This document shows, in pieces, positions 12,985 through 46,939 of a stretch of 54,679 nucleotides of DNA (position 1 is the stretch's first letter; every line of letters starts with the position of its first letter). The stretch is from Sedimenticola sp. (GTDB lineage Bacteria; Pseudomonadota; Gammaproteobacteria; Chromatiales; Chromatiaceae): contig JALSJZ010000114.1 in NCBI GenBank assembly GCA_026989135.1, positions 1 to 54,679 of the forward strand. The letters are read 5' to 3'. The position numbers were made by a program, and so were the translations under genes. The notes beneath the pieces are model-generated. The model did not search any database. It saw only the letters and a list, made by a program, of their open reading frames with translations, and was not told the DNA's origin.

Positions 12985-14460
<1,476 letters not shown>

Positions 14461-14508
14461 ATTTCTCTCCTAAATCTGGTTGGCAGTCACTGTAGATGCA
14501 GACAGAGG

Positions 14509-15624
14509 TTAATACATCCGGTTGCGGAACAGCCAGCCGGCAAAAGCCAGGGAGGCCACCCCGATGATGGCCATCGGCCAGTACTGGTTCAGCAGCAGGG
14601 CATAACTATCCCCCTCCAGTGTGACCCCGCGTACGACCACCAGGAAATAGCGCAGCGGGTTGAGATAGGTGAGCCACTGCACCAGCTGTGGCATGTTGGC
14701 GATGGGGGTGGAGAAGCCGGAGAGAATGACCGACGGCACCAGAAACAGAAAGGCACCGAGCACCGCCTGCTGCTGGGTGGCCGCAATGGCCGATATCATC
14801 AGCCCGATGCCCACCGCAGAGAGCAGAAACAGCACAATACCCAGGTAGAGTGCGCCAACAGAGCCACGCAGGGGGATCTCGAAAAAGAGCACCATCAACA
14901 CAATGATCAGCGTTGCCTGCAACAGCCCAATAACGATGCCGGGGATGGCCTTGCCGATGAGGATCTCCGTTGGTCGCAGAGGGGTCACCAGCAGCTGGTC
15001 AAAGGTGCCTGCCTCCCGTTCACGGGCCACTGAGAGCGCCGTCACCAGCAGGGTGACCACCAGCGTCAGCAGGCCAACAATGCCGGGTATGATGAACCAG
15101 CGCGATTGCAGGTTTTCGTTATACCAGGCGCGGGTTTGCAGGCTAACCAGTGGGCCGCTTCTGCCCTGCGACTCCAGCCAGCTGAGGTTGTAGTCCAGCA
15201 GAATGGTGCGCAGATAGTTCATGGCAATCATCGCTGTATTGGAGTTGCGCCCATCCAGAATGGCCTGCAGTGGCGCGGTACGCCCCTGCATCAGATCGGC
15301 GCTGAAATTCTGCCCGATGTGCAGTACCAGCAACACCTCTTTGTTGTCGATAAGGGGGGCAACCTCACTGTCATGGGAGATGGTGGTGATAACCTGAAAA
15401 TTGGGTGAGCCATCAATGCGGCTGACCAGTTCGCGCGCTGCAACACCGCGATCCTCATCAAAGATGGCTACCGGCACATTGTTGAGATCATAGGTGGCGG
15501 CAAAACCGAATATCAGCAGCTGGGCGATGGGCGGGCCGATGATGACCATGCGGCTGCGTTTGTCCCGCAGCAGCGCCAGAAACTCCTTGATGGCAAGCGC
15601 CAGAATATATCTGAAACAGGTCAC
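14509..15624 (-). CDS. ybhR: ABC-2 type transporter permease, YbhR-like
   Basis: 371 residues with the ABC-2 plan: one TM helix near residues 25-45, a large periplasmic loop to about 175, then five TM helices with the motif REREAGTFDQLLVTPLRPTEIL in the coupling region. It should form the membrane pore with the preceding permease, powered by the fused ATPase. Gene order and lengths (MFP 344, ATPase 581, permeases 374 and 371) match E. coli ybhGFSR. That system has been linked to drug export and cation/H+ exchange; the substrate here is unknown. It starts 3 bases after its partner permease. Confidence 0.9.
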   Translation of the reverse strand: MTCFRYILALAIKEFLALLRDKRSRMVIIGPPIAQLLIFGFAATYDLNNVPVAIFDEDRGVAARELVSRIDGSPNFQVITTISHDSEVAPLIDNKEVLLVLHIGQNFSADLMQGRTAPLQAILDGRNSNTAMIAMNYLRTILLDYNLSWLESQGRSGPLVSLQTRAWYNENLQSRWFIIPGIVGLLTLVVTLLVTALSVAREREAGTFDQLLVTPLRPTEILIGKAIPGIVIGLLQATLIIVLMVLFFEIPLRGSVGALYLGIVLFLLSAVGIGLMISAIAATQQQAVLGAFLFLVPSVILSGFSTPIANMPQLVQWLTYLNPLRYFLVVVRGVTLEGDSYALLLNQYWPMAIIGVASLAFAGWLFRNRMY

Positions 15625-32992: not shown

Positions 32993-33901
32993 ATGAAGTT
33001 CACACTCCGACAACTGAAGGTGTTTACCTCTGTAGCCAAACACTCAAGCTATACGCGTGCTGCGGAAGAGCTGTTTCTCAGTCAGCCTGCGGTTTCCATC
33101 CAGGTTAAACAGCTGGAGGGGCATATCGGCATGCCGCTGTTTGAGCAGATTGGCAAGAAGATCCATCTTACCCAGGCAGGCAGAGAGGTGCAGCACTACA
33201 GCCATGCCACCTTTCAGCAGCTCAAAGAGATGGAGGATGTACTGGAGGCCATGCAGGGGCTTAGCGGTGGGCGCCTGGATATTGCTGTGGCCAGTACCAT
33301 CAACTATTTTGCGCCCAAGTTGCTGGCGGCCTTCAGTCATCACCACCCCGATATTGACCTCACGCTGGAGGTGACCAATAGAGAGATGTTGAAAAAAAGA
33401 TTGCTGGGCAACGAAAGGGATATCATTCTTATGGGCCAGCCGCCGGCCAAGATGGATCTGGAAGCCACACCCTTTATGGAAAACCCTCTTGTTGTTATTG
33501 CCCCGCCAGACCATCCGCTGGCTAAAGAGCGGCAGATCCCTCTACAGCGGCTGGCTAAAGAGACCTTCCTCATCCGTGAGCCTGGTTCCGGTACGCGCCT
33601 GGCCATGGAACGTTTCTTTCAAGACAGGAAGATACGTTACAAGACGGGCATGGCAATGAGTCAGAATACGGCCATCAAGCAGGCAGTCCGTGCAGGCATG
33701 GGGCTGGCAGTGGTCTCCAGACACACCATCGAGCTTGAGGTTGAGACGGGGCGGTTGCAGGTGCTGGATGTGGAGGAGTTCCCTATCATGCGCACCTGGC
33801 ATATCGTCTATCCTCGTGGCAAACGGCTCTCTCCTGCCGCCCAGGCTTTCCATGATTTCGTGCTAAGCGATAATTTATCTGCGCTGTCCGGATTGAGTTA
33901 G
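32993..33901 (+). CDS. LysR-family regulator, CbbR-like
   Basis: 302 residues. N-terminal helix-turn-helix (FTSVAKHSSYTRAAEELFLS, then QPAVSIQVKQLE) and a periplasmic-binding-like effector domain. The start MKFTLRQLKVF, with LSQPAVSIQVKQLE and GLSGGRLDIAVASTINYF, is what I know from CbbR-type regulators of Calvin-cycle genes in autotrophic proteobacteria. CbbR senses metabolites such as RuBP, NADPH or ATP. No cbb gene lies in this window; the target could be elsewhere or could be neighbouring ion/carbon transport genes. No Shine-Dalgarno precedes the ATG, so expression may rely on upstream translation or be weak. Confidence 0.9.
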   Translation: MKFTLRQLKVFTSVAKHSSYTRAAEELFLSQPAVSIQVKQLEGHIGMPLFEQIGKKIHLTQAGREVQHYSHATFQQLKEMEDVLEAMQGLSGGRLDIAVASTINYFAPKLLAAFSHHHPDIDLTLEVTNREMLKKRLLGNERDIILMGQPPAKMDLEATPFMENPLVVIAPPDHPLAKERQIPLQRLAKETFLIREPGSGTRLAMERFFQDRKIRYKTGMAMSQNTAIKQAVRAGMGLAVVSRHTIELEVETGRLQVLDVEEFPIMRTWHIVYPRGKRLSPAAQAFHDFVLSDNLSALSGLS

Positions 33902-34001: not shown

Positions 34002-35915
34002 ATGTCCCGTTGCAACGAAACCGATACAGCCACACCTTTGACAGACTACCCGCTGCTCGCGCAGGTCAATACACCAGCTGATGTGCAGCAGCTTGACGAA
34101 GCCATGCTGGCTCAGCTTGCTGATGAGCTGCGCCGTTTTCTGGTGGAGACAATATCCCAAACTGGCGGACATTTAGCGGCCGGGCTGGGGGTGGTGGATC
34201 TCACAATTGCCATGCACCACGTCTTTAACACCCCGGAAGACCGCTTTGTATGGGATGTCGGACACCAGGCCTATCCACACAAGATATTGACTGGGCGGCG
34301 GGACAGGATGCATACGCTGCGCCAAAAGAACGGGATATCCGGTTTTCCCCGTCGTTGCGAAAGTCTGCATGATGCCTTTGGGGCTGGTCACTCAAGCACA
34401 TCTATCAGCGCCGGGCTGGGTATGGCCGCTGCCGCGAAGCAGAAAGGTGACGAGCGGCAGATCATCGCTGTGATTGGTGATGGAGCTATGGGTGGCGGCA
34501 TGGCCTTTGAGGCGATGAATCACGCGGGCGCGCTGGATCTTGATCTGCTGGTCATCCTCAATGACAACGAGATGTCCATCTCCAAGCCTGTGGGTGCAGT
34601 CAGCAACCACCTGGCGCGGCTGCTATCAGGGAAATTTTACACCCGGGTACGCGAAGGCGGCATAAATGCCCTCAAACACATGCCCGGCATCACCGAGCTC
34701 ATGGAGCGTGCAGAGGAGCACATGAAGGGGATGGTGATGCCCTCCACCCTGTTTGAAGAGCTGGGGTTTAACTACATCGGCCCTATCGACGGCCATGATC
34801 TGCCTACACTGGTCACCACGCTGCGCAACATGAAGGCGATGAGCGGCCCACGTCTGCTGCACGTTGTTACAAAAAAAGGCCAGGGCTACGAACCCGCAGA
34901 AGAGGATCCCTGCGTCTACCACGGTGTCACCCCATTCAACCCCTCTACCGGAGAGATGGCGAAGAAAAAGGGCGGTCAGACCTATACCCAGGTCTTTGGC
35001 AGCTGGCTGTGTGAGACCGCTGAAAAAGATGACCGGCTGGTGGCAGTCACCCCGGCCATGTGCGAGGGCTCTGGCATGGTCAGCTTCTCACGGCGGTTCC
35101 CGGAGCGTTTTTTTGATGTTGGCATTGCCGAGCAGCATGCCATGACCTTTGCGGCCGGCATGGCCTGTGAAGGGCTGAAACCTGTGGTAGCCATCTACTC
35201 CACCTTTCTACAGCGTGGTTATGATCAGTTGGCGCACGATATTTCACTGCAAAATCTGGATGTAACGCTGGCGGTCGACCGTGCTGGCCTGGTAGGCCCG
35301 GATGGCGCTACACATGCTGGCAGCTTCGATCTAAGCTATGTCCGCACTCTGCCCAATATGGTTATTCTGGCACCGTCTGATGAAAATGAGTGCCACCAGA
35401 TGCTGCAGACAGCCTACGAATATGAAGGCCCGGCTATGGTTCGCTATCCCCGTGGCAGCGGCTCTGGTGTGACGATTAAAGAGCCATGTGTAACCCTCCC
35501 TCTGGGCAGAGGGGAGCTGCGTCGACAGGGTCAGCGGGTTGCGATACTTGCATTTGGCAGCATGCTGACCCCTGCGCTGAAGGTTGGTGAAGAGCTGGAT
35601 CTTACGGTTGCCAATATGCGCTTTGTAAAACCACTGGATGAGGCGCTCATCCTGCAGCTGGCAGAGCAGCATGAGCTGCTGGTTACGGTGGAAGAGAATA
35701 TGATTCAAGGTGGTGCAGGCTCCGCAGTCAATGAGCTGTTGGCTCAGAATCACAAGGTGATCCACATCATTAACCTGGGGCTGCCGGACTACTATATTGA
35801 ACATGCACAGCCCGCAGAACAGCTACAACGATGCGGCCTGGATGCCGATGGCATCCGCAGATCCATATTGGAAGTAGTTGGTGAGGAGGCGGAACAGGGC
35901 GTCCGGTCTGCTTAA
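34002..35915 (+). CDS. dxs: 1-deoxy-D-xylulose-5-phosphate synthase
   Basis: 637 residues. First step of the MEP isoprenoid pathway, joining pyruvate and glyceraldehyde-3-phosphate. ThDP site: [14 protein letters not shown] (from about 158) with LNDNEMSIS (about 186-194). Other motifs: [43 protein letters not shown] (catalytic Glu), and [13 protein letters not shown]. Full length with an N-terminal extension of about 15 residues before the conserved part; the ATG at 34002 has a weak ribosome site. It feeds quinone and undecaprenyl synthesis. Downstream comes MITE copy 2. Confidence 0.96.
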
Positions 35916-36305: not shown

Positions 36306-36800
36306 ATGCACGGTATTCTCAAGATGAAATCTTACAGCTTTGCCGCACTACTGTTTCTGTTCTGGGTCTTTTTGTCAGGGCATCTCACGCCCCTGTTGCT
36401 TGGGTTTGGGGTGGTATCTGTCGCACTGGCAGTTTTCCTGTCGAAGCGGATGAATGTTATTGATCATGAAAGCTACCCCCTGCACCTCTCATCACAGCTC
36501 CCGGCTTTTTTTGTTTATATCTTTAAAGAGATCATAAAGGCGAATATTGATGTTGTTAAACGGATCCTTCAGTGGCAGGGCAGCACTATCAGCCCACAGC
36601 TGGTAGATATCCCCGTACAGCAGACATCCGACCTGGGGCGCGTGATCTATGCCAATGCCATTACCCTGACGCCAGGTACGGTAAGTATTGAGCTGTCCCA
36701 AGAGACCATAACGATTCACGCGTTAACCGAGGAGGCAGCTCAAGAACTTGCTGCGGGAAACATGGCCAAAGAAGTTTCTAACCGGGTTCTTGTCGAATAA
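36306..36800 (+). CDS. mnhE: Mrp-type Na+/H+ antiporter subunit E
   Basis: 164 residues. Two N-terminal TM helices (FAALLFLFWVFLSGHL and LLGFGVVSVALAVFL), one more near FFVYIFKEIIKANIDVV, then a soluble tail with the family motif YANAITLTPGTVSIEL. Subunit of the Mrp/Mnh multisubunit antiporter in the cytoplasmic membrane. An ATG at 36324 (MKSYSF) is an equally good start. First gene of a ten-gene operon; each following junction overlaps or nearly so, which shows one transcript and coupled translation. Confidence 0.93.
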   Translation: MHGILKMKSYSFAALLFLFWVFLSGHLTPLLLGFGVVSVALAVFLSKRMNVIDHESYPLHLSSQLPAFFVYIFKEIIKANIDVVKRILQWQGSTISPQLVDIPVQQTSDLGRVIYANAITLTPGTVSIELSQETITIHALTEEAAQELAAGNMAKEVSNRVLVE

Positions 36801-37084
36801 TGTTTATTGCAGTCTCAGTGGCGATTCTCATCACCATGGGGTTGGCGCTTGCGCGAGCTCTTACGGGGCCTACAACCTATGACCGGATTGCTGCGGTTAA
36901 TATGTTTGGCACCAAAACCGTGCTGCTGATTGCGGTTTTGGCATTCTTGTCAGGCAGCACGGATCTGCTGGATATTGCGCTGGTCTACGCGCTGATCAAT
37001 TTTATAGGCGTTGTAGCGGCGCTGAAGCTGGTTACCCAGAAAAATTTTCACTCCTCGGAAGAGAATAGGAGAGAAGTAGAATGA
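36800..37084 (+). CDS. mnhF: Mrp-type Na+/H+ antiporter subunit F
   Basis: 94 residues, three TM helices. Family motifs ALTGPTTYDRIAAVNMFGTK and DIALVYALINFIG. The start overlaps the mnhE stop by 1 base (TAATG) and the stop overlaps mnhG. A small integral part of the Mrp complex, needed for its assembly in studied systems. Confidence 0.94.
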   Translation: MFIAVSVAILITMGLALARALTGPTTYDRIAAVNMFGTKTVLLIAVLAFLSGSTDLLDIALVYALINFIGVVAALKLVTQKNFHSSEENRREVE

Positions 37085-37401
37085 TGATCGACATTCTTAG
37101 CTGGGTTTGCCTCTTTGCAGGTGGCCTGCTGGGCATTATTGGTGGCATTGGTATTCACCGCTTTCCTGACTTTTATAGCCGTCTGCATGCCGCAGGGATA
37201 ACCGATACCCTCTGCGCCATGTTGATTTTATTTGGCCTTGGGTTGCAAGCGGGTTTTACCCTCGCAGCCTTCAAACTGGCGTTGATCTTTGTGTTTCTCT
37301 TTTTTACCAGCCCAACCGCCTCACACGCATTGGCAAATGCGGCGCTGCACAGCGGCCTGAAGCCAAAGCTGGATATGGATGGTCGCGGGGTCAGATCGTG
37401 A
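37081..37401 (+). CDS. mnhG: Mrp-type Na+/H+ antiporter subunit G
   Basis: 106 residues, three TM helices. Characteristic GGLLGIIGGIGIHRFPDFYS with RLHAAGITDTL and FFTSPTASHALANAA. Overlaps mnhF by 4 bases (ATGA, 37081-37084) and the next gene by 4 (GTGA, 37398-37401). Confidence 0.95.
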   Translation: MMIDILSWVCLFAGGLLGIIGGIGIHRFPDFYSRLHAAGITDTLCAMLILFGLGLQAGFTLAAFKLALIFVFLFFTSPTASHALANAALHSGLKPKLDMDGRGVRS

Positions 37402-38000
37402 TTGATATTCTTATCAATGTCACCTTGCTGGCCTTTCTGGCGATCACCTCAGTGGCCATTTTGCGCATGACAAACCTGTTTGCCATCGTCATGCTGTATG
37501 GAATCTTCAGCCTTCTGTCTGCGGGGCTGTTTGTTGTAATGGATGCACCAGATGTGGCATTTACTGAGGCCGCAGTGGGCGCGGGAATCTCTACGGTGTT
37601 GATGCTGGCTACACTGGCTTTGACAAGAAGCCGGAAGAGAGGCCATGAGGGCGATTATGAGGAGAAGCCCTCGCGCGCCCACCGTCCATGGCTGCCGCTG
37701 GCGGTAGTGGGCATAACCGGCACCGCGCTGGTTTATGGCACCTGGGATATCCCAGGTTTTGGCGACCCTAATGCGCCTGCGCAGACGCATGTTGCGCGCT
37801 ATTACATTGAAAATACCATGTCAGACACTGGAGTCCCAAATATGGTGACCGCTGTGCTGGCGAGTTATCGCGGGTTCGATACACTGGGAGAGGTCGCGGT
37901 TGTCTTTACCGCAGGGGTCGCTGTTTTGCTGCTGATCGGTGGAAGGCGTCCAAAATCCGGCGCCAAGGTGAAGAGTGAGGGGGGAGAGGATGAAGCCTAA
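37398..38000 (+). CDS. DUF4040-type antiporter subunit (MrpA C-terminal/MbhD-like)
   Basis: 200 residues, GTG start inside the mnhG stop. The first ~85 residues (VAILRMTNLFAIVMLYGIFS, DAPDVAFTEAAVGAGISTVL) are the DUF4040 domain found near the C-terminus of long MrpA. A linker and one TM follow (LPLAVVGITGTALVYGTW), then VLASYRGFDTLGEVAVVFTA, the MbhE/MrpB-N-like part. So the C-terminal domains of MrpA are here a separate protein, placed just before mnhB as they are at the end of fused MrpA. Confidence 0.88.
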   Translation: MIDILINVTLLAFLAITSVAILRMTNLFAIVMLYGIFSLLSAGLFVVMDAPDVAFTEAAVGAGISTVLMLATLALTRSRKRGHEGDYEEKPSRAHRPWLPLAVVGITGTALVYGTWDIPGFGDPNAPAQTHVARYYIENTMSDTGVPNMVTAVLASYRGFDTLGEVAVVFTAGVAVLLLIGGRRPKSGAKVKSEGGEDEA

Positions 38001-38409
38001 CCTTATTCTGCATGTTGTCTCAAAATTTCTTATTCCACTGATTATTGTCTTTGCACTCTATGTTCAGTTTCATGGTGATTTCGGGCCTGGTGGAGGTTTC
38101 CAGGCCGGGGTGATCTTTAGCGCCGCCATCATACTCTACGCCCTGGTGTTTGGGCTCGATGCGGCAGAGAAGATCATCCCCTCTCATGTGCTGCGTATTT
38201 TGGCCAGCTTTGGTCTGCTGCTCTATGCGGGTGTTGGTGTGGTTACACTGCTGTTAGGCGCCAATTATCTGGATTACAGCGTCCTGGGCAGCACCCAGAT
38301 TGCAGGGCAACACCTGGGTATTTTGCTGGTAGAGCTGGGGGTAGGCATTACAGTTGCTGCCGTCATGCTGATTCTCTATTTTGCCTTCGCAGGCAGAGGC
38401 AGAACCTGA
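37990..38409 (+). CDS. mnhB: Mrp-type Na+/H+ antiporter subunit B
   Basis: 139 residues, four TM helices. Motifs ALYVQFHGDFGPGGGFQAG and VELGVGITVAAVMLILYF. The ATG at 37990 is chosen over one at 37975 because a G-rich ribosome site (GGGGAGAGG) lies directly before it. Overlaps the DUF4040 gene by 11 bases and mnhC by 1 (TGATG). Confidence 0.93.
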   Translation: MKPNLILHVVSKFLIPLIIVFALYVQFHGDFGPGGGFQAGVIFSAAIILYALVFGLDAAEKIIPSHVLRILASFGLLLYAGVGVVTLLLGANYLDYSVLGSTQIAGQHLGILLVELGVGITVAAVMLILYFAFAGRGRT

Positions 38410-38765
38410 TGGATTTCTTTATTGACCATTACAACTACTGGGTAGTGATTTTCTTAATGATGGTGGGTCTCTACACCGTGATAAGTCGCGGTAATCTCAT
38501 AAAAAAAATCATTGGCCTGAATATTTTTCAGGTCTCTGTCTTTTTTCTCTACATCAGTGTCGGCACGGTGGAGGGGGGGGCTGCACCGATTCTTACCGAT
38601 GGCATTGAGCTCTACTCAAACCCGCTGCCGCATGTGCTGATTCTCACTGCCATCGTGGTGGGTGTGGCGATGACTGCGCTGGCGCTGGCGCTGGTGGTGC
38701 GTATTAAAGAGTCCTACGGCACCATTGAAGAAGATGAAATTCACGAGCTGGATCATTCGCTGTAA
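38409..38765 (+). CDS. mnhC: Mrp-type Na+/H+ antiporter subunit C (NuoK-like)
   Basis: 118 residues, three TM helices, homologous to NuoK of complex I. Motifs NLIKKIIGLNIFQVSVFFLY and NPLPHVLILTAIVVGVA. The conserved acidic residue pattern of MrpC/NuoK lies in TM2/3. Overlaps both neighbours by 1 base. Confidence 0.95.
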   Translation: MDFFIDHYNYWVVIFLMMVGLYTVISRGNLIKKIIGLNIFQVSVFFLYISVGTVEGGAAPILTDGIELYSNPLPHVLILTAIVVGVAMTALALALVVRIKESYGTIEEDEIHELDHSL

Positions 38766-40240
38766 TGGAAAATAATATTAGCCTACTGTTGGTTGCAGTA
38801 CCGCTTATTGCCGCCCCTGTCGTAGCTGTTTTGCCCCGTGGTCGACTCCCATGGGCGGTCACTCTGGTGGTCACCTTTCTCTGTGCACTGTTTGCCAGCA
38901 TGCAGCTGTACGGGGTGCTCAGTGGCGGTCTGATCAGTTATGAGCTGGGCGGATGGGCGCCACCCTGGGGGATCGAATACCGCATTGATGCCGTCAATGC
39001 CTTTGTGGCACTGATTGTTGCAGGTATTGCGGCGGTTACGCTGCCCTATGCCCTGCTCAGCGTAGAGCAGGAGATCCCGGAAGAGCAGATCCCGCTGTTC
39101 TATAGCGCCATGCTGCTCTGCCTGACCGGCCTGCTGGGGATTACGCAGACCGGCGATATTTTTAATGTCTTTGTCTTCTTAGAGATATCATCACTCTCCT
39201 CGTATGCGCTGATCAGCCTGGGGAGAAAGCGGCAGGCGCTCACCTCTGCCTACCAATATCTGATTATGGGCACGGTTGGTGCCACCTTTTTCCTGATCGG
39301 TGTCGGGCTGATCTATTCACAAACCGGCACCTTGAATATGCAGGATCTGGCAGTGCGCCTGCCCGAGGTAGCTCACTTTAAAACCGTCAATACCGGCTTT
39401 GCCTTCATCATGATCGGTATCGCACTGAAGCTGGCACTGTTTCCATTGCATCTTTGGCTGCCCAATGCCTACACCTATGCCCCCTCAGTGGTAACGGTCT
39501 TCCTTGCCGCAACAGCGACCAAGGTTGCTCTTTATGTGATGTTGCGGGTGCTCTTCACCATTTTCCCGGATAGCTTTTTGTTGGCAGCACATGCCAGAGA
39601 ACTCTTTATCGTAGCGGGTATTGCCAGCATTATCATCGCGTCGGTCTACGCCATCTATCAGGAGGATGTCAAGCGGTTGCTGGCCTACTCCAGTGTGGCA
39701 CAGATTGGCTATATGGCGATGGGGATCGGGTTTGCATCTGCCACAGGTGTTACCGCTGCACTGATCCATCTTTTCAATCACTCGTTGATGAAAGGTGCTC
39801 TGTTCATGGCCGTTGGCGCCATTATCTATCGTATCGGTGCCTGCCGCATGAGAGATATTCATGGGTTGGGCAGGGCGATGCCATGGACCTTTGGCGCCAT
39901 TGTGATTGGCGGCTTGAGCCTCATCGGCGTGCCTGGCACGGCCGGATTTATCAGCAAATGGTATCTGGTAGCGGCGGCACTGGAACAGGAGGCCTGGATA
40001 TCTGTCGCAGTCATTCTGTTTGGCTCTCTGCTGGCAGTGGTCTATGTGGGCAAATTGATAGAGGCACTCTATTTCAAGCCCGTTACAGAGTCCGGTAAAT
40101 CTGTGACCGAGGCACCGCTGATGCTGTTGGCACCTACTTGGGTGCTGGTATTTGCCAATATCTATTTTGGTCTGGATACGGAGTTAACAGTGGGTGTTGC
40201 TGAAAAAGCGGCGGCCATTCTGGGGGTTGTGAACCCATGA
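38765..40240 (+). CDS. mnhD: Antiporter-like subunit 1, MrpD (NuoM/N-like)
   Basis: 491 residues, about 14 TM helices. Channel residues are intact: Glu140 (FVFLEISSLSSY, TM5), Lys222 (ALKLALFPLHLWLPNAY, TM7), Lys253 (ATATKVALYV, TM8) and Lys398 (GFISKWYLV, TM12), which match the essential Glu/Lys set of MrpD. It should carry protons, Na+ or both. It follows mnhC by a 1-base overlap and overlaps the next antiporter-like gene by 4 bases (ATGA, 40237-40240). Confidence 0.95.
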   Translation: MENNISLLLVAVPLIAAPVVAVLPRGRLPWAVTLVVTFLCALFASMQLYGVLSGGLISYELGGWAPPWGIEYRIDAVNAFVALIVAGIAAVTLPYALLSVEQEIPEEQIPLFYSAMLLCLTGLLGITQTGDIFNVFVFLEISSLSSYALISLGRKRQALTSAYQYLIMGTVGATFFLIGVGLIYSQTGTLNMQDLAVRLPEVAHFKTVNTGFAFIMIGIALKLALFPLHLWLPNAYTYAPSVVTVFLAATATKVALYVMLRVLFTIFPDSFLLAAHARELFIVAGIASIIIASVYAIYQEDVKRLLAYSSVAQIGYMAMGIGFASATGVTAALIHLFNHSLMKGALFMAVGAIIYRIGACRMRDIHGLGRAMPWTFGAIVIGGLSLIGVPGTAGFISKWYLVAAALEQEAWISVAVILFGSLLAVVYVGKLIEALYFKPVTESGKSVTEAPLMLLAPTWVLVFANIYFGLDTELTVGVAEKAAAILGVVNP

Positions 40241-41703
40241 GTGCAGAAACATTACTGCTGACCATTCTGCTGCTGCCTTTGGTCGGGGCTGTCGGTATCA
40301 TTGCCGCCCGGCATAACCCAAATATCAGAGAGGGGGTCACGCTGGTAACCGCCTCGCTCATCGCCATCCTGGTGCTGATCATGGCCTGCCGCTTCCTGGA
40401 TGGAGAGGCGTTCGCCTATACCGTGATGGAGCCTCTGCCCGGAGTCGCTATCGCCTTTGAGGTTGAGGCGCTGGGGATGCTGTTTGCGCTGATTGCGGGG
40501 CTATTGTGGGTGGTTACCTCTATCTACTCCATCGGCTACATGCGCAGCAATAATGAGCAGAATCAGACGCGGTTTTTTGCTGCATTTGCGGTCTCTATCG
40601 CTGCCACGATGGGCATTGCATTCTCTGCCAATCTGTTTACGCTGTTTCTCTTCTATGAGCTGTTGACGCTTGCCACCTATCCGCTGGTTGCCCATGCGGG
40701 CACCCCCGAGGCAAAGCGCGGCGGAAGGGTCTACCTCGGTATTTTGCTGGGGACATCCATTGGCTTCTTCCTGCTTGCAATCATGGTTACATGGGTGCTT
40801 ACCGGCAGTGTCGATTTTCAGGAGGGTGGCATCCTGGCGGGTCACATTGACCCGGCGTGGGCGGGTCTGCTCTATGCGTTCTTTCTGTTTGGTATCGGCA
40901 AGGCTGCGCTGATGCCCTTCCACCGCTGGCTGCCCGCAGCGATGGTGGCTCCTACCCCGGTGAGTGCGCTGCTGCACGCCGTGGCGGTGGTCAAGGCGGG
41001 TGTCTTCACCCTGCTCAAGGTGACCATCTATATCTTTGGCGGTGACTTTATCCTCTCCAATGATGTGACGGGTGGCCTGATCTGGGTGGCGGCAGCCACC
41101 ATACTGATTGCATCGCTGATTGCGATGACCAAAGATAACCTCAAGGCACGGCTTGCCTACTCTACAGTCAGTCAGCTGAGCTATATTGCACTGGGAGCGA
41201 TGCTGGCGAGCAAGACGGGTCTGATTGGTGCCTCGATGCATATTGCGATGCATGCCTTTGCAAAAATCACCCTCTTTTTTGCCGCCGGTGCCATCTATGT
41301 TGCCGCCCATAAAAAACTGGTCAGTGAGCTGAACGGGCTGGGTCGGGCGATGCCCATCACCTTTGCGGCGTTCTTTATTGGTACCTTGAGTATTATCGGG
41401 TTGCCACCGTTTGGCGGCATGTGGAGCAAGTGGTATCTCGGATTGGGTGCGGTCGAGACCGCGCAGCTGTTGTTACTTGCGGTGTTGATGATCAGCTCGC
41501 TGCTCAATATTATCTATCTGCTGCCTATCCCTATTCGCGCCTTTTTCAGCAAACCTGATAGCGGCGAACACTATACGCAGATAGCGGAAGCGCCAAAACC
41601 GATGCTGCTGGCGATGATTATCACCTCAACGGCCTGTGTGGTGCTGTTTTTCTACCCGGATACCTTCTACCAACTGGCAAGCCTGGCGGCTGGAGGCTCT
41701 TGA
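40237..41703 (+). CDS. Antiporter-like subunit 2 (NuoL/MrpA N-terminal-like)
   Basis: 488 residues, about 14 TM helices. TM5 Glu141 (FLFYELLTLATYPL), TM7 Lys222 (GKAALMPFHRWLPAAM), the His247-containing LLHAVAVVKAGVF with Lys253, and the TM12 Lys in GGMWSKWYLG. The stretch VAPTPVSALLHAVAVVKAGV is the NuoL/MrpA form, which differs from subunit 1 (APSVVTVFLAATATK). I read it as the N-terminal half of a split MrpA, with the C-terminal domains at 37398-38000. Whether it lacks the extra MrpA helices is inferred from length. Confidence 0.92.
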   Translation: MSAETLLLTILLLPLVGAVGIIAARHNPNIREGVTLVTASLIAILVLIMACRFLDGEAFAYTVMEPLPGVAIAFEVEALGMLFALIAGLLWVVTSIYSIGYMRSNNEQNQTRFFAAFAVSIAATMGIAFSANLFTLFLFYELLTLATYPLVAHAGTPEAKRGGRVYLGILLGTSIGFFLLAIMVTWVLTGSVDFQEGGILAGHIDPAWAGLLYAFFLFGIGKAALMPFHRWLPAAMVAPTPVSALLHAVAVVKAGVFTLLKVTIYIFGGDFILSNDVTGGLIWVAAATILIASLIAMTKDNLKARLAYSTVSQLSYIALGAMLASKTGLIGASMHIAMHAFAKITLFFAAGAIYVAAHKKLVSELNGLGRAMPITFAAFFIGTLSIIGLPPFGGMWSKWYLGLGAVETAQLLLLAVLMISSLLNIIYLLPIPIRAFFSKPDSGEHYTQIAEAPKPMLLAMIITSTACVVLFFYPDTFYQLASLAAGGS

Positions 41704-41704
41704 T

Positions 41705-41959
41705 ATGTCAGATGAAAACGAGAAAACATATCTCTTTGACAAGCCCGAAAATGTCGAGCGTCTGCTGAAGTGGTTTTATGGGGCCTGCATTCTGCTGGTG
41801 GTTGCTGATTTTGTTTTTCATCGCCACATTGGCTTTGGCTGGGAGGAGATCCCGGCTTTTTATGCCATTTATGGCTTCGTCGCTTGCGTGGTGTTGCTCA
41901 TCATCGCAAAGAAGATGCGCAAGATTGTGATGCGTAAGGAAAATTACTACGATGAGTGA
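41705..41959 (+). CDS. Small two-TM protein of the antiporter operon
   Basis: 84 residues. A charged N-terminus (MSDENEKTYLFDKPENVERL), two TM helices (WFYGACILLVVADFVF and AFYAIYGFVACVVLLIIAKK) and a basic tail. No known subunit is recognised. It starts 1 base after the previous stop and overlaps the next gene by 8 bases, so it belongs to the complex's operon and may be an assembly or stalk-like subunit. An in-frame ATG at 41636 lies inside the previous gene and is rejected. Confidence 0.85.
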   Translation: MSDENEKTYLFDKPENVERLLKWFYGACILLVVADFVFHRHIGFGWEEIPAFYAIYGFVACVVLLIIAKKMRKIVMRKENYYDE

Positions 41960-43646
41960 GTTGCCTCCCTTCGTTCTCTATTTTATTGCAGCACTGCTGG
42001 TAGCCGTCACCCGCGGCACTGTACGTCAGGTTATATTGCTGGCAACACCGCTCATCGCGGGTTTGCATCTGTGGTTTAACATTGATGCCGGGGTTATCGT
42101 CACTCACTCCATCATGAGTTATGAGTTGACTGCCATGCGGGCGGATAAACTGGGCCTGCTGTTTGCTTACCTGTTCTGTATCGCCAGCTTTATAGCGAGC
42201 ATATTCTCTCTCCATCTAAAAGATACAAAACAGCATGTCGCCGGGGTGATGTATGCGGGCAGTGCCGTGGGGGCGGTGCTTGCAGGCGATCTGATCACTC
42301 TGTTTATCTTTTGGGAGCTGTTGGCGGTAAGTTCGGTGTTTCTTATCTGGGCGCGCAGCAGTGAGCGGGCGTTCAAGGCCGGTATGCGTTATCTGGTCTT
42401 TCAGGTGCTGTCGGGGTTGTTGCTGCTGGCCGGTGCATTGGTCTATTACCACGATACCGGCTCGCTGGCATTTGACCACATTGGTCTGGATATGGGTGTC
42501 GCCGGTTGGTTGATCTTTATCGCTTTTGGTATTAAAGCTGCGTTCCCTTTTCTGCACGGCTGGCTTATCGATGGTTATCCTGAGGCGACCGTTACCGGCA
42601 TGGTATTTCTCACTGCCTTCTCCACCAAGGTTGCAGTCTATGCCCTGGCACGCGGATTTGCGGGTGAAGAGATTCTGGTCTATATCGGTGTCACCATGGC
42701 CTGCTTTCCGCTTTTTTATGCGGCGATTGAGAATGACCTGCGTAAGGTGCTTGCCTACTGCCTGATCAATCAGATGGGTTTTATGGTGACCGGCATAGGC
42801 ATTGGTACTGCCCTGGCGCTAAATGGTGTGGTTGCACATGCCTTTAGTCATGTGATCTATAAAGGATTGCTGTTTATGACTGTGGGTGCGGTGCTCTATC
42901 GGGCTGGTAGCATCAATGGTTCAGACCTTGGTGGGCTATACAAGTCCATGCCGAAAACCACCGTACTCGGCATAGTCGGGGCGCTTGCTATTGCATTCCC
43001 GCTGTTTAGCGGCTTTATCAGTAAGTCAATGGTGATGAGTGCGCTGATGTATGGGGATTACGGTTATCTGTGGCTGCTGATGCTGTTTGCCTCAGCCGGT
43101 GTGTTTCACCTTGCGGGGATCAAGGTTCCCTATTTTGCATTTTTCGCGCAAGATTCGGGCATTCGCACTGAAGAGGCACCCAGGAATATGCTGGTTGCCA
43201 TGAGCCTCGCTGCGGCGCTCTGTCTCTTTATCGGCATGCAGCCGCAATATCTCTATGCACTGCTGCCCTGGGAGGCGGAGTACTGGCCGTACGATGTCAC
43301 GCATGTTCTGGCTCAATTGCAGCTGCTCTTTTTCTCTGCGCTGGCCTTTGTCTGGTTGAATAAAAAGGGACTCTACCCGCTTGGGTTGCCCTCCGTGAAT
43401 CTGGATATGGAGTGGTTTTACCGCAAGCTGTTGCCTGTGGGCGTGCGACGGGCAGTGCTCTTTTTGCGCAGCGCAAAAGAGTCTGCCCTGACCGCAGTAA
43501 CAGTGCCTATGCAGGGTATTCAATCTGTCTTCTCTCAATCGTCAGTTGCCAAATACTATCTCTCGGAGAGCTGGCCTACCGGAAGCATGGTGTTCTGGAT
43601 CTCGATCATTCTTGCCGCCTATCTGCTGCTGGGCATCTTTGGGTAG
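41952..43646 (+). CDS. Antiporter-like subunit 3 (NuoM/MrpD-like, extended)
   Basis: 564 residues. Core of about 14 TM helices with TM5 Glu122 (LFIFWELLAVSSVF), TM7 Lys195 (FGIKAAFPFLHGWL), TM8 Lys226 (FSTKVAVYALARG) and a TM12 Lys (SGFISKSMVMSAL), so its ion path looks complete. After the core come about 100 residues with NLDMEWFYRKLLP, a segment often seen at the ends of MrpD/NuoL-like proteins in other operons, and a last TM (VFWISIILAAYLLLGIF). It is a third full channel unit in the locus. Last gene of the operon. Confidence 0.93.
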   Translation: MSELPPFVLYFIAALLVAVTRGTVRQVILLATPLIAGLHLWFNIDAGVIVTHSIMSYELTAMRADKLGLLFAYLFCIASFIASIFSLHLKDTKQHVAGVMYAGSAVGAVLAGDLITLFIFWELLAVSSVFLIWARSSERAFKAGMRYLVFQVLSGLLLLAGALVYYHDTGSLAFDHIGLDMGVAGWLIFIAFGIKAAFPFLHGWLIDGYPEATVTGMVFLTAFSTKVAVYALARGFAGEEILVYIGVTMACFPLFYAAIENDLRKVLAYCLINQMGFMVTGIGIGTALALNGVVAHAFSHVIYKGLLFMTVGAVLYRAGSINGSDLGGLYKSMPKTTVLGIVGALAIAFPLFSGFISKSMVMSALMYGDYGYLWLLMLFASAGVFHLAGIKVPYFAFFAQDSGIRTEEAPRNMLVAMSLAAALCLFIGMQPQYLYALLPWEAEYWPYDVTHVLAQLQLLFFSALAFVWLNKKGLYPLGLPSVNLDMEWFYRKLLPVGVRRAVLFLRSAKESALTAVTVPMQGIQSVFSQSSVAKYYLSESWPTGSMVFWISIILAAYLLLGIFG

Positions 43647-43727
43647 GCAATCTTAAGCGATTCTTGCTGTTGCCTTCGTAGAGCCAAAGGGCAGCGGCAG
43701 CTCAGCGAAGGTGACTCCAGTCGCCCT

Positions 43728-43758
43728 GCTAACGATTCAGGTTAGCGCCTTATTCCTT
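43728..43758 (+). terminator. Weak terminator-like hairpin after the antiporter operon
   Basis: GCTAAC (43728-43733) and GTTAGC (43741-43746) with a 7-base loop, then CCTTATTCCTTTTT. A 6-bp stem and interrupted T-run make it weak, so read-through into the SulP gene is possible. Confidence 0.35.
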
Positions 43759-43865
43759 TTTCGCATAAGCAGTCCGTATACCTAGATCTGCGTGTTATAT
43801 TAGAATAGCGGCTCCGCTATGCATTGCGCATAAATTGATTCTGGACGCCTGGCGAAAAAATAAAA

Positions 43866-45611
43866 ATGCACAAAGCCCCCCTCCCTTCGATCTGGCATCG
43901 CCTGTTTCCCTTCCTCTCCTGGGTGGGGGAGCTGCGGCAGACTGAGGTTCTGCGCGCAGACATCCTTGCCGGGATCACGGTTGCCCTGGTGCTTATTCCT
44001 CAATCTATGGCGTATGCGCAGCTTGCAGGGCTGCCGCCACACATGGGGCTTTACGCTGCTCTGTGGCCGACGGTTATCGCTGCGCTGTTTGGCTCTTCGC
44101 GGCAGCTCTCCACCGGGCCGGTAGCTGTCGTCTCACTGATGACCGCTACGGCACTGGAGCCTTTGGCCAGCATGGGCAGCGAAGGGTTTCTTGCCTATGC
44201 GGTGCTGCTTGCGCTGCTCGTCGGCCTGTTCCAGTTGGCTCTGGGCTTTTTACGTATGGGGGTGCTGGTCGATCTGCTCTCTCATCCTGTGGTGTTGGGC
44301 TTTACCAATGCGGCCGCCCTGATCATTGCCAGCTCGCAGCTTGGCAAGATATTTGGGGTCAATATTGCCAATGAAGATCAACATTATGAGACGGTGTGGA
44401 ATACCCTGGTTGCTGCGCTCATGCATACGCATGGCTTGACACTGCTGATGGCGCTGCTGGCCTTTGCCATTATCTTTGGCCTGATGAGATATGCGCCCAA
44501 GGTGCCTGCGATTGTAACCGCCGTTGCAGTAACCACCATGATATCGGCATCAACCGGATACATGGAGGCAGGCGGGCAGGTTGTAGGTGCTATTCCGGCA
44601 GGGCTGCCGGCATTGGTACTCCCGACATTCAACTGGGAAATCATCAGCCAGCTGCTCTCCTCTGCGGTGGTGATTGCCCTGATTGGCTTTATGGAGGCCA
44701 TATCCATCTCCAAGGCGATAGCGACCAGCACCCGGCAGCGGCTGGATGCAAACCAGCAGCTCATCGGCGAAGGCCTTGGAAATATTGCCTCCGGGCTCTC
44801 CTCCGGCTATCCGGTATCCGGCTCCTTCTCTCGTTCAGCTGTTAATATGAATGTGGGGGCCGTGACCGGTTTCTCTTCCATCGTCACCGGCCTTGTGGTG
44901 GCGATTGCACTGCTCTGGTTTACACCCGGTCTGTATCATCTGCCGCAAGCTACCCTGGCGGTTGTGATTGTGGTGGCGGTCGTTCGGCTGATCAAGATAG
45001 GCCCCTTCTTTCATATCTGGAAGGTGCATCGCCATGACGGGATTGTGGCGCTGGTGACCTTTGTCCTGACGCTGTTGCTGGCACCGCATCTGGATTACGG
45101 CATCATGGCCGGTGTTGGGCTCTCGCTGGTTCTGTTTCTCTACCGCACCATGCGCCCACGCTTCTCTATCCTGTCGCGTTATGTCGATGGCACCCTGCGT
45201 GATGTGGAGATCTATGATCTGCCGACCAGTGAACAGATCGCAATTATTCGTTATGATGGTGCCCTCTATTTTGCCAATGCAGGCTTCTTTGAAGATCAGG
45301 TTCTGGCCGTTGAGGCGGCAAATCCCAAGCTGCGTTTTATCATCATCGATGGCGGCGGTATCACCCAGATCGATGCCACGGGTGAAGAGACGCTCTATCA
45401 CCTGATCAGAAGGCTGCGTGATGCGGGTATTGAGGTGTTGATGGCGCGCTCAAAAAAGCAGATTATTGATACGCTGAGATATAATGAGGGGCTGATGGAG
45501 TCTCTGGGAGAGGAGCGTATCTTCCCCCGTATCAAATTTGCGCTGGATTATGCCTGGAAAAAACTGGGCGATAGCTACGATAACGCCAACTGTCCATTGC
45601 GGCGAAAATAG
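43866..45611 (+). CDS. SulP-family anion permease with STAS domain
   Basis: 581 residues. N-terminal SulP signature ILAGITVALVLIPQSMAYAQ with LAGLPPHMGLYAAL, about 12-14 TM helices, NIASGLSSGYPVSGSFSRSA in the core, and a C-terminal cytoplasmic STAS domain (about 440-560). Members carry sulfate, bicarbonate (cyanobacterial BicA) or dicarboxylates, some with Na+ and some with H+; the ion cannot be decided from sequence. The gene follows the Mrp-like operon by 219 bases on the same strand, so a Na+-driven bicarbonate symporter fed by the antiporter is my favoured reading. Weak ribosome site. Confidence 0.94.
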   Translation: MHKAPLPSIWHRLFPFLSWVGELRQTEVLRADILAGITVALVLIPQSMAYAQLAGLPPHMGLYAALWPTVIAALFGSSRQLSTGPVAVVSLMTATALEPLASMGSEGFLAYAVLLALLVGLFQLALGFLRMGVLVDLLSHPVVLGFTNAAALIIASSQLGKIFGVNIANEDQHYETVWNTLVAALMHTHGLTLLMALLAFAIIFGLMRYAPKVPAIVTAVAVTTMISASTGYMEAGGQVVGAIPAGLPALVLPTFNWEIISQLLSSAVVIALIGFMEAISISKAIATSTRQRLDANQQLIGEGLGNIASGLSSGYPVSGSFSRSAVNMNVGAVTGFSSIVTGLVVAIALLWFTPGLYHLPQATLAVVIVVAVVRLIKIGPFFHIWKVHRHDGIVALVTFVLTLLLAPHLDYGIMAGVGLSLVLFLYRTMRPRFSILSRYVDGTLRDVEIYDLPTSEQIAIIRYDGALYFANAGFFEDQVLAVEAANPKLRFIIIDGGGITQIDATGEETLYHLIRRLRDAGIEVLMARSKKQIIDTLRYNEGLMESLGEERIFPRIKFALDYAWKKLGDSYDNANCPLRRK

Positions 45612-45751: not shown

Positions 45752-46939
45752 ATGAACTCTATAGACGCCAAAGCGGCACGAATCAAACCCTTTAGCTCGA
45801 CCCCGCGTACCTTGATGGGGCCTGGGCCATCTGAACTTCATCCCCGTGTGCTGACAGCCATGGCGCAGCCGACGATCGGCCATCTGGATCCGGTCTTTAT
45901 TGATCTGATGGATGAGATCAAGGTGCTGTTGCAATATGCCTTTCAGACAGAAAATGCGGCAACCTTTCCGCTCTCGGCTCCTGGGTCGGCGGGTATGGAG
46001 GCCTGCTTTGCCAATCTGGTGGAGCCGGGTGACCAGGTCATTGTCTGCCAGAACGGTCTGTTTGGCGGCCGCATGAAGGAGAATGTGGAGCGCTGTGGCG
46101 GCATACCGATTATGGTGGAGGATGAGTGGGGTTCGGCGGTTGATCCGGAAAAGGTAGAGGCGGCACTGAGTACCCATCCTGAGACAAAGATCCTCGCCTT
46201 TGTGCATGCCGAGACCTCTACCGGGGTCGAGTCTGATGCAAGAACCCTGGCCGATCTGGCCATTCAGCACGGTTGTCTGACACTGGTCGATACTGTCACT
46301 TCACTGGGCGGGTCGCCCGTTCTGGTGGATGAGTGGGAGCTTGATGCGGTCTATTCCGGTTCGCAGAAGTGCCTCTCCTGCGCGCCGGGCCTCTCCCCCA
46401 TCACCTTTAGTGAACGTGCCTTGGAGAAGGTTAAAAATCGCCGTAGTAAGGTGCAGAGCTGGTTTATGGATCTGAACCTGATGATGGGCTATTGGGGCAA
46501 GGGCAGGCGCAGGGCCTACCACCACACCGCGCCGGTCAATGCGCTGTTTGGCCTGCATGAGGCGCTGCTGATGCTGAGGGAGGAGGGGCTGGAGAATGCC
46601 TGGGATCGCCATCTGCGTCACCATCTTGTGCTGCGGGACGGTTTGGCATCGCTGGGTATCGAGTTTCTGGTGCGCAAGGATTGGCGTCTTCCGCAGTTGA
46701 ATGTCGTGCGTGTGCCCGAGGCGCTGAATGATGCTTCGGTACGAGCCGATCTATTAAAATATTACAATCTGGAGATTGGCGCAGGCCTGGGGCCATTGCA
46801 AGGAGATGTCTGGCGTATTGGCCTGATGGGTTACAGCAGCCGCCCGGAGAATGTCCTGCTCTGCGTGGGTGCGCTGGAGTCGTTGCTGAAGACCTGTAGC
46901 GCCCTTGCCACTGTGCATAAAACACTGGAGAACAGATAG
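45752..46939 (+). CDS. Class V aminotransferase (alanine/serine-glyoxylate type)
   Basis: 395 residues, PLP-dependent. LMGPGPSELHPRVL, LSAPGSAGMEACFANLV, VHAETSTGVESDA, LVDTVTSLGGSPV and the PLP lysine in YSGSQKCLSCAPGLSP. The family transfers an amino group from alanine or serine to glyoxylate to make glycine, the detoxification step of RuBisCO's oxygenase product. The exact donor is not decided. It is 0 bases from rhdA, so co-transcribed with rhdA and psd. Confidence 0.93.
   Translation: MNSIDAKAARIKPFSSTPRTLMGPGPSELHPRVLTAMAQPTIGHLDPVFIDLMDEIKVLLQYAFQTENAATFPLSAPGSAGMEACFANLVEPGDQVIVCQNGLFGGRMKENVERCGGIPIMVEDEWGSAVDPEKVEAALSTHPETKILAFVHAETSTGVESDARTLADLAIQHGCLTLVDTVTSLGGSPVLVDEWELDAVYSGSQKCLSCAPGLSPITFSERALEKVKNRRSKVQSWFMDLNLMMGYWGKGRRRAYHHTAPVNALFGLHEALLMLREEGLENAWDRHLRHHLVLRDGLASLGIEFLVRKDWRLPQLNVVRVPEALNDASVRADLLKYYNLEIGAGLGPLQGDVWRIGLMGYSSRPENVLLCVGALESLLKTCSALATVHKTLENR

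Follow-up and report, generated by a model that had tools for sequence, protein, structure and literature searches.

NhaD and Mrp antiporters export Na+ in exchange for H+, the former as the product of one gene from an unrelated protein superfamily (PF03600). DabAB makes bicarbonate from CO2. The Mrp (CPA3) antiporters have been divided into groups 1-3, with two antiporter subunits and with gene orders other than the one described here (PMC5703873). Within the SulP/SLC26 family, the closest characterized references are the Na+/HCO3- symporter BicA (PMC13249358) and AtSULTR4;1, a plant vacuolar H+/sulfate symporter (PMC8298490). We analyzed a stretch of 54,679 nucleotides from the marine bacterium Sedimenticola sp. 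(contig JALSJZ010000114.1; hereafter the window, in its whole length), in which ten genes for a putative three-channel Mrp-type antiporter are followed, 219 bases downstream, by a gene for a SulP anion transporter. Our preferred reading, to which we give a probability of about 0.6, is that an interchangeable Na+/H+ antiporter serves this SULTR-type SulP, the Mrp operon having displaced nhaD from the place beside it.

The evidence comes first from the six sampled genomes of the window's genus (g1), namely that of the window (G000) and G043, G051, G076, G086, and G178, all of which carry an ortholog of the window SulP (81-100% identity). In G086, G178, and G076, the gene order is LysR regulator, DXS (1-deoxy-D-xylulose-5-phosphate synthase), a divergent nhaD, and SulP; in G000 it is LysR, DXS, Mrp operon, and SulP, so that one slot next to SulP is filled by NhaD in the three sisters and by the operon in G000. 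The SulP-adjacent gene of the sisters is a NhaD (NF038006, 647 bits against a cut-off of 80). The operon also directly precedes SulP in G051 and G043, where AGT, rhodanese, and PSD genes follow SulP as in G000. Within the window, the gap between the last antiporter gene (D3) and sulP reads ATGCGAAAAAGGAATAAG on the minus strand, that is, the first 18 bases of the intact nhaD of G086, in a frame that encodes MRKRNKALT and then stops, at 43737. An alignment of the gap to the DNA between nhaD and sulP in the sisters covers 65 bases (81.5% identity, E-value 6e-13). This relic stretch is found again in G051 and, in altered form, in G043; among the fetched loci, its only matches at an E-value of at most 1 were to SulP-upstream DNA, in the genus and, over 35 bases, in G107. 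Because nhaD start codons persist between D3 and SulP, nhaD was once the occupant of this slot and was displaced by the Mrp-type operon. The features concerned are:

32993-33901, plus strand: LysR regulator, left-flank marker (CbbR model NF045990, 271 bits, under the cut-off of 450)
34002-35915, plus strand: DXS, left-flank marker (PF13292, 412 bits)
43746-43766, minus strand: nhaD relic, ATG and next codons (first 18 bases identical to the intact G086 nhaD)
43767-43811, no strand assigned: conserved intergenic DNA between divergent nhaD and sulP (alignment of all six genus genomes sampled)
43866-45611, plus strand: SulP (SLC26/SULTR-type) anion transporter with a STAS domain (PF00916, 336 bits; PF01740; TIGR00815; site residues)

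The distribution of NhaD paralogs agrees with this. G086, G178, and G076 hold both the SulP-adjacent nhaD and a paralog, and G000, G043, and G051 each carry a single NhaD, the 71-72% paralog away from SulP (about 23 kb from it on the same contig in G051), the SulP-adjacent gene being missing. G076 retains nhaD in the SulP slot and carries the operon at another place (contig C14, locus L042), which differs from the window's in chromosomal position and has a beta-carbonic anhydrase gene (14299-14775) some 5 kb away; the corresponding empty site was sought in G000, where the flank was not contiguous. The operon of G043 (L063) is 83-94% identical to that of the window from E to D2, 59% in the 84-aa protein, and only 67-68% in D3; recombination may have exchanged the D3 end of this operon.

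Two further alternations of the same kind were observed. All six sampled genomes of genus g13 have nhaD, SulP, an FAD oxidase gene, and LppC, with LysR and DXS on the left in all 5 whose stretch reaches that far; G087, in which no NhaD match was found genome-wide, has DXS, DUF945, the Mrp operon, SulP, the FAD oxidase gene, and LppC, with a D3 44% identical to the window's. In genus g158, which belongs to another family, G412 shows the order oxidoreductase, SulP, outer membrane efflux gene, nhaD, LCIB-like gene, and G296 the order Mrp operon, efflux gene, SulP, oxidoreductase. Their SulPs are sisters in the tree (support 100) and the far sides are alike (a Methyltransf_4 gene, then ThiG, by Pfam). 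In addition, the operon precedes SulP with one small open reading frame (ORF) between them in G325, and operon and NhaD are direct neighbors in G067 (matches 28 bases apart) and in L103. Operon and SulP are adjacent in two of the seven genera (counted by hand) having both genes in one genome, for which a simple model gives a chance probability of 8e-5 to 2e-4. A linkage of antiporter and SulP above chance is thus supported, because NhaD and Mrp alternate in three lineages, a nhaD relic remains, and this SulP often lies with genes for the uptake of dissolved inorganic carbon. Among the matches listed in searches of the open literature, no paper on the pairing of a SulP with NhaD, Mrp, or DabA was seen. 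Taken together, the relic and the recurrent exchange of one Na+/H+ antiporter for an unrelated one argue strongly, on comparative grounds, that the two transporters work as a pair, and they provide a testable partner for an uncharacterized SulP clade that also occurs in DabAB operons of a genus including Ca. Thiodiazotropha.

The ten ORFs of the operon and the SulP gene, first noted by an annotation made from the letters alone (hereafter the initial annotation), were recovered at their positions by ORF calling and Pfam/NCBIfam profile searches:

36306-36800, plus strand: MrpE/MnhE-like subunit, E (PF01899, 103 bits)
36800-37084, plus strand: MrpF-like subunit, F (PF04066, 60 bits; Asp28 present, Asn34 for canonical Asp35/38)
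37081-37401, plus strand: MrpG-like subunit, G (PF03334, 88 bits; TIGR01300, 81 bits against a cut-off of 63)
37398-38000, plus strand: MbhD+MbhE fusion, DE (DUF4040), counterpart of the MrpA C-terminal domain (PF13244; PF20501; NF009159, 210 bits against 141)
37975-38409, plus strand: MrpB-like subunit, B, with a PGGGF stretch (PF04039, 102 bits; NF009162, 187 against 120)
38409-38765, plus strand: MrpC/NuoK-like subunit, C (PF00420, 79 bits; NF005621, 142 against 126)
38765-40240, plus strand: antiporter subunit D1, MrpD-like (PF00361, 221 bits; 6u8y_H, 258 bits; tree)
40237-41703, plus strand: antiporter subunit D2, own clade (PF00361, 177 bits; 6hum_F, 135 bits; tree)
41705-41959, plus strand: 84-aa conserved membrane protein between D2 and D3 (tblastn conservation)
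41952-43646, plus strand: antiporter subunit D3 (NF009310, 656 bits against a cut-off of 564; hydropathy; tree)

Homologs of every subunit MrpA-G are thus present in one operon, MrpA as split parts. D1, D2, and D3 are all Proton_antipo_M proteins, and the hydropathy profile of D3 shows a C-terminal extension ending in one additional hydrophobic segment. Such subunit proteins are already known to annotators, since five of them (G, DE, B, C, and D3) pass curated NCBI models; E, F, D1, and D2 were above none of the NCBIfam cut-offs shown. As initially noted, no full-length MrpA (about 800-1000 aa) exists in the window, nor among the seven PF00361 matches in the whole genome (open frames of 475-663 aa), among which no canonical full Mrp elsewhere in G000 was seen either. 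One of the seven, on contig C71, is partial, and its scanned neighbors include pyrD and no DabA. DabA was also absent from the 16 scanned proteins of the locus, the rest of the genome not having been searched for it. No model in Pfam or NCBIfam reached its cut-off with the 84-aa protein, whose residues C28, G57, F58, R72, R77, Y81, and Y82 are invariant in 38 aligned sequences.

The key charged residues of the antiporter subunits are well conserved. All three antiporter subunits of the window have the Glu of transmembrane helix (TM) 5 and the Lys of TM7, TM8, and TM12, as the initial annotation had stated. In relatives (some genomes being counted twice, under two locus ids) the four positions are kept in 108/108 D1 and 113/113 D2 sequences; in D3, the Glu is kept in 122/123 and the TM8 and TM12 Lys in 123/123, but the TM7 Lys in only 103/123, with Asn in the other 20/123. 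The cation path described for Bacillus Mrp includes the loading and exit acids Glu687 and Glu780 of MrpA and the PGGGF stretch of MrpB (PMC9568556). Matched by motif and conservation rather than structure, the former correspond in DE to Glu57 (conserved at 0.99), Asp161, and Glu165 (both 1.00; 91 sequences), and the latter is found in the window protein.

With Mrp groups 1-3 (PMC5703873), the window operon thus shares counterparts of all of MrpA-G, the key Glu and Lys, and the MrpB stretch; it differs from them in the split of MrpA into DE and a separate antiporter subunit, in having three antiporter subunits instead of two, and in the extra 84-aa protein. A second likeness is to the solved complexes 6u8y and 6cfw, which we take to be the MBS/MBH membrane modules of Thermococcales. 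The nearest solved chain is 6u8y_H (presumably MbsH) for D1, 6hum_F (presumably NdhF1; NdhF/NuoL chains) for D2, and 6u8y_X (presumably MbsH') for D3, and MBS/MBH also have a separate MbhD/MbhE-type subunit, whereas the ten genes include no redox or hydrogenase gene and do include the third antiporter subunit, D2. In its overall makeup, the three-channel Mrp resembles the membrane arm of complex I minus the redox part. In the subunit tree, whose long branches make placements unsure, D1 groups with canonical MrpD (SH-aLRT 89), D3 with MrpA-N/NuoL (86), and D2 stands alone (rows canonMrp_L072_491 and canonMrp_L072_565 being D2 and D3 of L072). This suggests that D3, and not D2, is the MrpA-N counterpart, the reverse of the labels first given (NuoL/MrpA-like for D2 and MrpD-like for D3). 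Mrp-type subunits, a DUF4040 protein included, have been tested in Ehrlichia, where they are scattered over several places in the genome.

The SulP protein of the window was initially compared with BicA, and this comparison was not borne out. It scores 440 bits with TIGR00815 (cut-off 380) and 135 with the BicA model NF050096 (cut-off 880, a strict value reached in 0/274 gammaproteobacteria and 0/14 control genomes), and its best solved relative is AtSULTR4;1 (318 bits), a plant vacuolar protein, from which it differs in a genomic context of Na+/H+ antiport and inorganic carbon. In an alignment of 116 sequences, 90 of them from the window's clade, eight residues of the AtSULTR4;1 site were compared (Gln112, Tyr116, Ala153, Glu347, Ser390, Phe391, Ser392, and Arg393; PMC8298490), and all are conserved in 90/90 clade members. 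Among the Na+ and HCO3- ligands of BicA (PMC13249358), Thr69, Asp258, Thr262, Ala301, and Thr302 are absent in 90/90, the window protein having Val, Glu, Ile, Ser, and Phe at these positions; the likeness to BicA is limited to the SulP/SLC26 family, Gly300, and an acidic TM8 residue (Glu here, Asp in BicA). The SulP tree, with long-branch warnings, agrees with a SULTR-type rather than a BicA placement, so that in the phylogenetic check first suggested the protein groups, by residues and tree, with sulfate carriers. Since the AtSULTR4;1 site is present and five BicA ligands are missing, direct Na+ coupling of SulP appears doubtful, and because the TM8 Glu is that of SULTR4;1 and the BicA Na+ ligands are lacking, H+ would be the likelier coupling ion, ahead of Na+ in a direct symport. 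In T. pelophila, a carboxysome-linked SulP rescued carbonic anhydrase-less Escherichia coli and the other SulP did not (PMC12628692), which indicates that SulPs differ. A second SulP gene of G000 is apparently split over the ends of contigs C69 and C87 by an assembly break.

The neighborhoods of 60 SulP orthologs in the window's family (at least 53% identity over nearly the full length, surroundings read) include the Mrp operon in 4 cases, NhaD in 10, DabA/DabB in 22, an LCIB-like gene in 6 (one also with DabA/DabB), a BicA-like gene in 1, and only a NuoL/M/N-like trio in 1. By genus, these are g1 and g32 for Mrp, g1, g13, and g40 for NhaD, g4, g48, and g55 for Dab, and g11, g21, and g55 for the LCIB-like gene; in g4, SulP lies about 60 bases before DabB on the same strand (L206). 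Among 30 class-level orthologs (at least 50% identity), we found the Mrp operon beside 2, NhaD within 5 kb of 3 (as no more than a 259-aa ORF in G228), and a BicA-like gene without Mrp or NhaD beside 2 (one merely 31% identical). The SulPs paired with NhaD or Mrp come from RuBisCO-less genomes in 8/14 cases, compared with 3/27 for those paired with Dab or the LCIB-like gene, a comparison that is only suggestive as the genomes are related. The carbonic anhydrase label of the LCIB-like protein is weak, because PF18599 scores are sub-threshold (24, 17.6, and 17.7 bits against 25) and no solved relative was found. Seen from the operon, a SulP ortholog lies beside it in 4 of the 43 family carriers with read surroundings (44 carriers in all, several cut by contig ends), so that a general linkage of operon and SulP was rejected and the initial expectation that relatives would conserve SulP next to the operon largely failed. 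In L117 and L090 (operon at about 4.2-11.7 kb), NhaD, a BicA-like SulP, an LCIB-like gene, a DASS/TrkA-like transporter gene, and a second SulP occur within about 20 kb, possibly as an inorganic-carbon island.

RuBisCO (PF00016) was found in 0/6 sampled genomes of the genus and in 175/195 sampled family genomes, and dsrA reached its cut-off in 0/6 genus genomes compared with 11/20 family genomes searched. Judged by PF00016 and dsrA, the genus would be a heterotrophic branch within a family made up largely of sulfur oxidizers, and not the autotroph first envisaged. The association of the operon with cbb genes proposed at the same time was likewise rejected for the six sampled genus genomes, and the operon is not enriched with RuBisCO in the family: 9/20 RuBisCO-less genomes carry it compared with 35/175 with RuBisCO (Fisher 0.02, the genomes not being independent). 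The gene at 32993, then called CbbR-like, encodes indeed a LysR regulator, but without reaching the CbbR cut-off. A beta-carbonic anhydrase was found in 6/6 genus genomes, which rules out its loss as the reason for SulP.

In the reading we prefer, the ten genes would form a three-channel Mrp-type cation/proton antiporter, most likely moving Na+ out and H+ in, and in an ancestor of this genome their operon took over from nhaD the slot just upstream of sulP. This slot would serve SulP, the antiporter restoring the Na+ and/or H+ balance disturbed by anion transport. We infer the ion specificity of the antiporter, its direction, and its coupling to SulP; which genes are present, that nhaD was displaced, and that the alternation recurs are observed. 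Should SulP import bicarbonate, the inward H+ would offset the alkali that this brings; should it instead move sulfate together with H+, the role of the antiporter would be to regulate pH and Na+. Bicarbonate is our first candidate, though at somewhat less than even odds, because SulP orthologs lie in operons with DabAB; it would feed anaplerotic carboxylases here and, in relatives, the Calvin cycle. Sulfate follows closely, since SulP shares its binding site with the H+/sulfate symporter, and another anion would be a less probable substrate. Of the initial proposal, a Na+ antiporter linked to SulP-mediated bicarbonate uptake in an autotroph, the antiporter-SulP pairing is retained, and the autotroph and the BicA-type SulP are not.

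Several observations weigh against this reading. The G051 contig starts inside D1, which leaves its left flank out of sight, and the left flank of G043 is different: the operon is preceded by a gene for an AcrB-type pump (PF00873, 964 bits) and not by DXS, and neither LysR nor DXS was detected in the 17 kb read. A nhaD relic was sought in G087 and G296 and not found. None of the searched partners was present in the DNA read for 17/60 family SulP orthologs (G027 among them showing weak antiporter-subunit matches) and 23/30 class-level ones, some of both sets being cut by contig ends. In the canonical cation path, which includes MrpF Asp35/38 and a His pair of MrpC (PMC7419157), the MrpF-like subunit keeps Asp28 (76/76) but has Asn34 in place of Asp35/38 (75/76), and the His pair was not found in the aligned stretch of MrpC examined, where Gln41 is conserved (101/102; positions in both subunits assigned by eye). 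Na+ specificity by analogy with Mrp is weakened by these two differences. The AtSULTR4;1-type site of SulP, which lacks five BicA ligands and makes its direct Na+ coupling doubtful, is a further counterargument. Moreover, with a beta-carbonic anhydrase in G000, bicarbonate import is not obviously needed, and adjacency may merely reflect shared regulation or a permissive site.

The alternative that survives best is that SulP is an H+-coupled sulfate transporter, for assimilatory uptake or efflux, with the antiporter only buffering cytoplasmic pH and Na+. The AtSULTR4;1 site in the whole clade, the score of this best solved relative, and the frequency of dsrA in the family all speak for it; however, DabAB and LCIB-like neighbors point to inorganic carbon, and sulfate efflux would have no obvious source in a genus in which dsrA did not reach its cut-off (other sulfur-oxidation genes were not searched). 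We regard it as possible but on the unlikely side. Rather improbable is that the slot merely offers a neutral insertion site close to a strong promoter, with antiporters functionally untied to SulP: the operon does occupy many other places in relatives and most class-level SulPs have no such neighbors, but chance accounts poorly for the adjacency in two of seven genera, and the exchange in all three lineages is between NhaD and the Mrp operon, which are unrelated Na+/H+ antiporters. That the operon builds a Na+ gradient for a BicA-like Na+/HCO3- symporter in autotrophic carbon fixation is very improbable in view of the absence of RuBisCO from the sampled genus genomes, the residues, model score, and tree position of SulP, and the lack of enrichment with RuBisCO, even if L090 and L117 have the operon with BicA-like, LCIB-like, and NhaD genes beside it and, in cyanobacteria, BicA/SbtA reportedly have the support of Mrp and NhaS (PMC13249358).

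In epithelia, Na+/H+ exchangers are paired with anion transporters of the SLC26 family. By analogy, our antiporter-SulP pair could, tentatively and with the odds rather against it, represent a modular bacterial counterpart in which NhaD or a three-channel Mrp is matched to an inorganic carbon-moving SULTR-type SulP and would have been kept after RuBisCO loss for heterotrophic bicarbonate supply, autotrophic relatives pairing SulP more often with DabAB or the LCIB-like protein.

Downstream of SulP, the gene at 45752, initially called a glyoxylate aminotransferase, encodes a class-V aminotransferase that stays under every NCBIfam cut-off, so that the more precise name is not secured.

Three-channel Mrp operons of this ten-gene type, 84-aa protein included, are widespread, and no description of the type was seen among the articles listed in searches of the open literature. 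D3 was detected at an E-value below 1e-80 in 44/195 genomes of the same family (a sample), and at least 80 named loci matched it in a wider contig search, the best 80 of which were compared. These include Shewanella, Kangiella, Alteromonas, Ferrimonas, Microbulbifer, Rhodobacteraceae, Gemmatimonadota, a Campylobacterales, and a Desulfocapsaceae bacterium, so that carriers span Gamma- and Alphaproteobacteria, Gemmatimonadota, and others; many of the carrier genera are heterotrophs. A tblastn match to the 84-aa protein was obtained in 78/80 loci of the wider set, the other two (L093 and L096) starting at D3. Gene order was compared in 123 loci (some genomes twice), of which 92 extend 6.5 kb or more beyond D3 on its upstream side. 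According to a scripted count, 89 of these 92 have all ten genes on one strand in the order E-F-G-DE-B-C-D1-D2-small-D3, the exceptions being L074 and L076, in which the 84-aa protein was not detected, and L163. The latter (Proteobacteria UBA2383) has D2, the 84-aa gene, and D3 only, preceded by 8 kb without other operon genes, and appears to be a reduced or broken version. The three-channel operons of L051 (G172:C214) and L072 (G162:C144) are each adjoined, in the opposite orientation, by another Mrp operon of canonical appearance.

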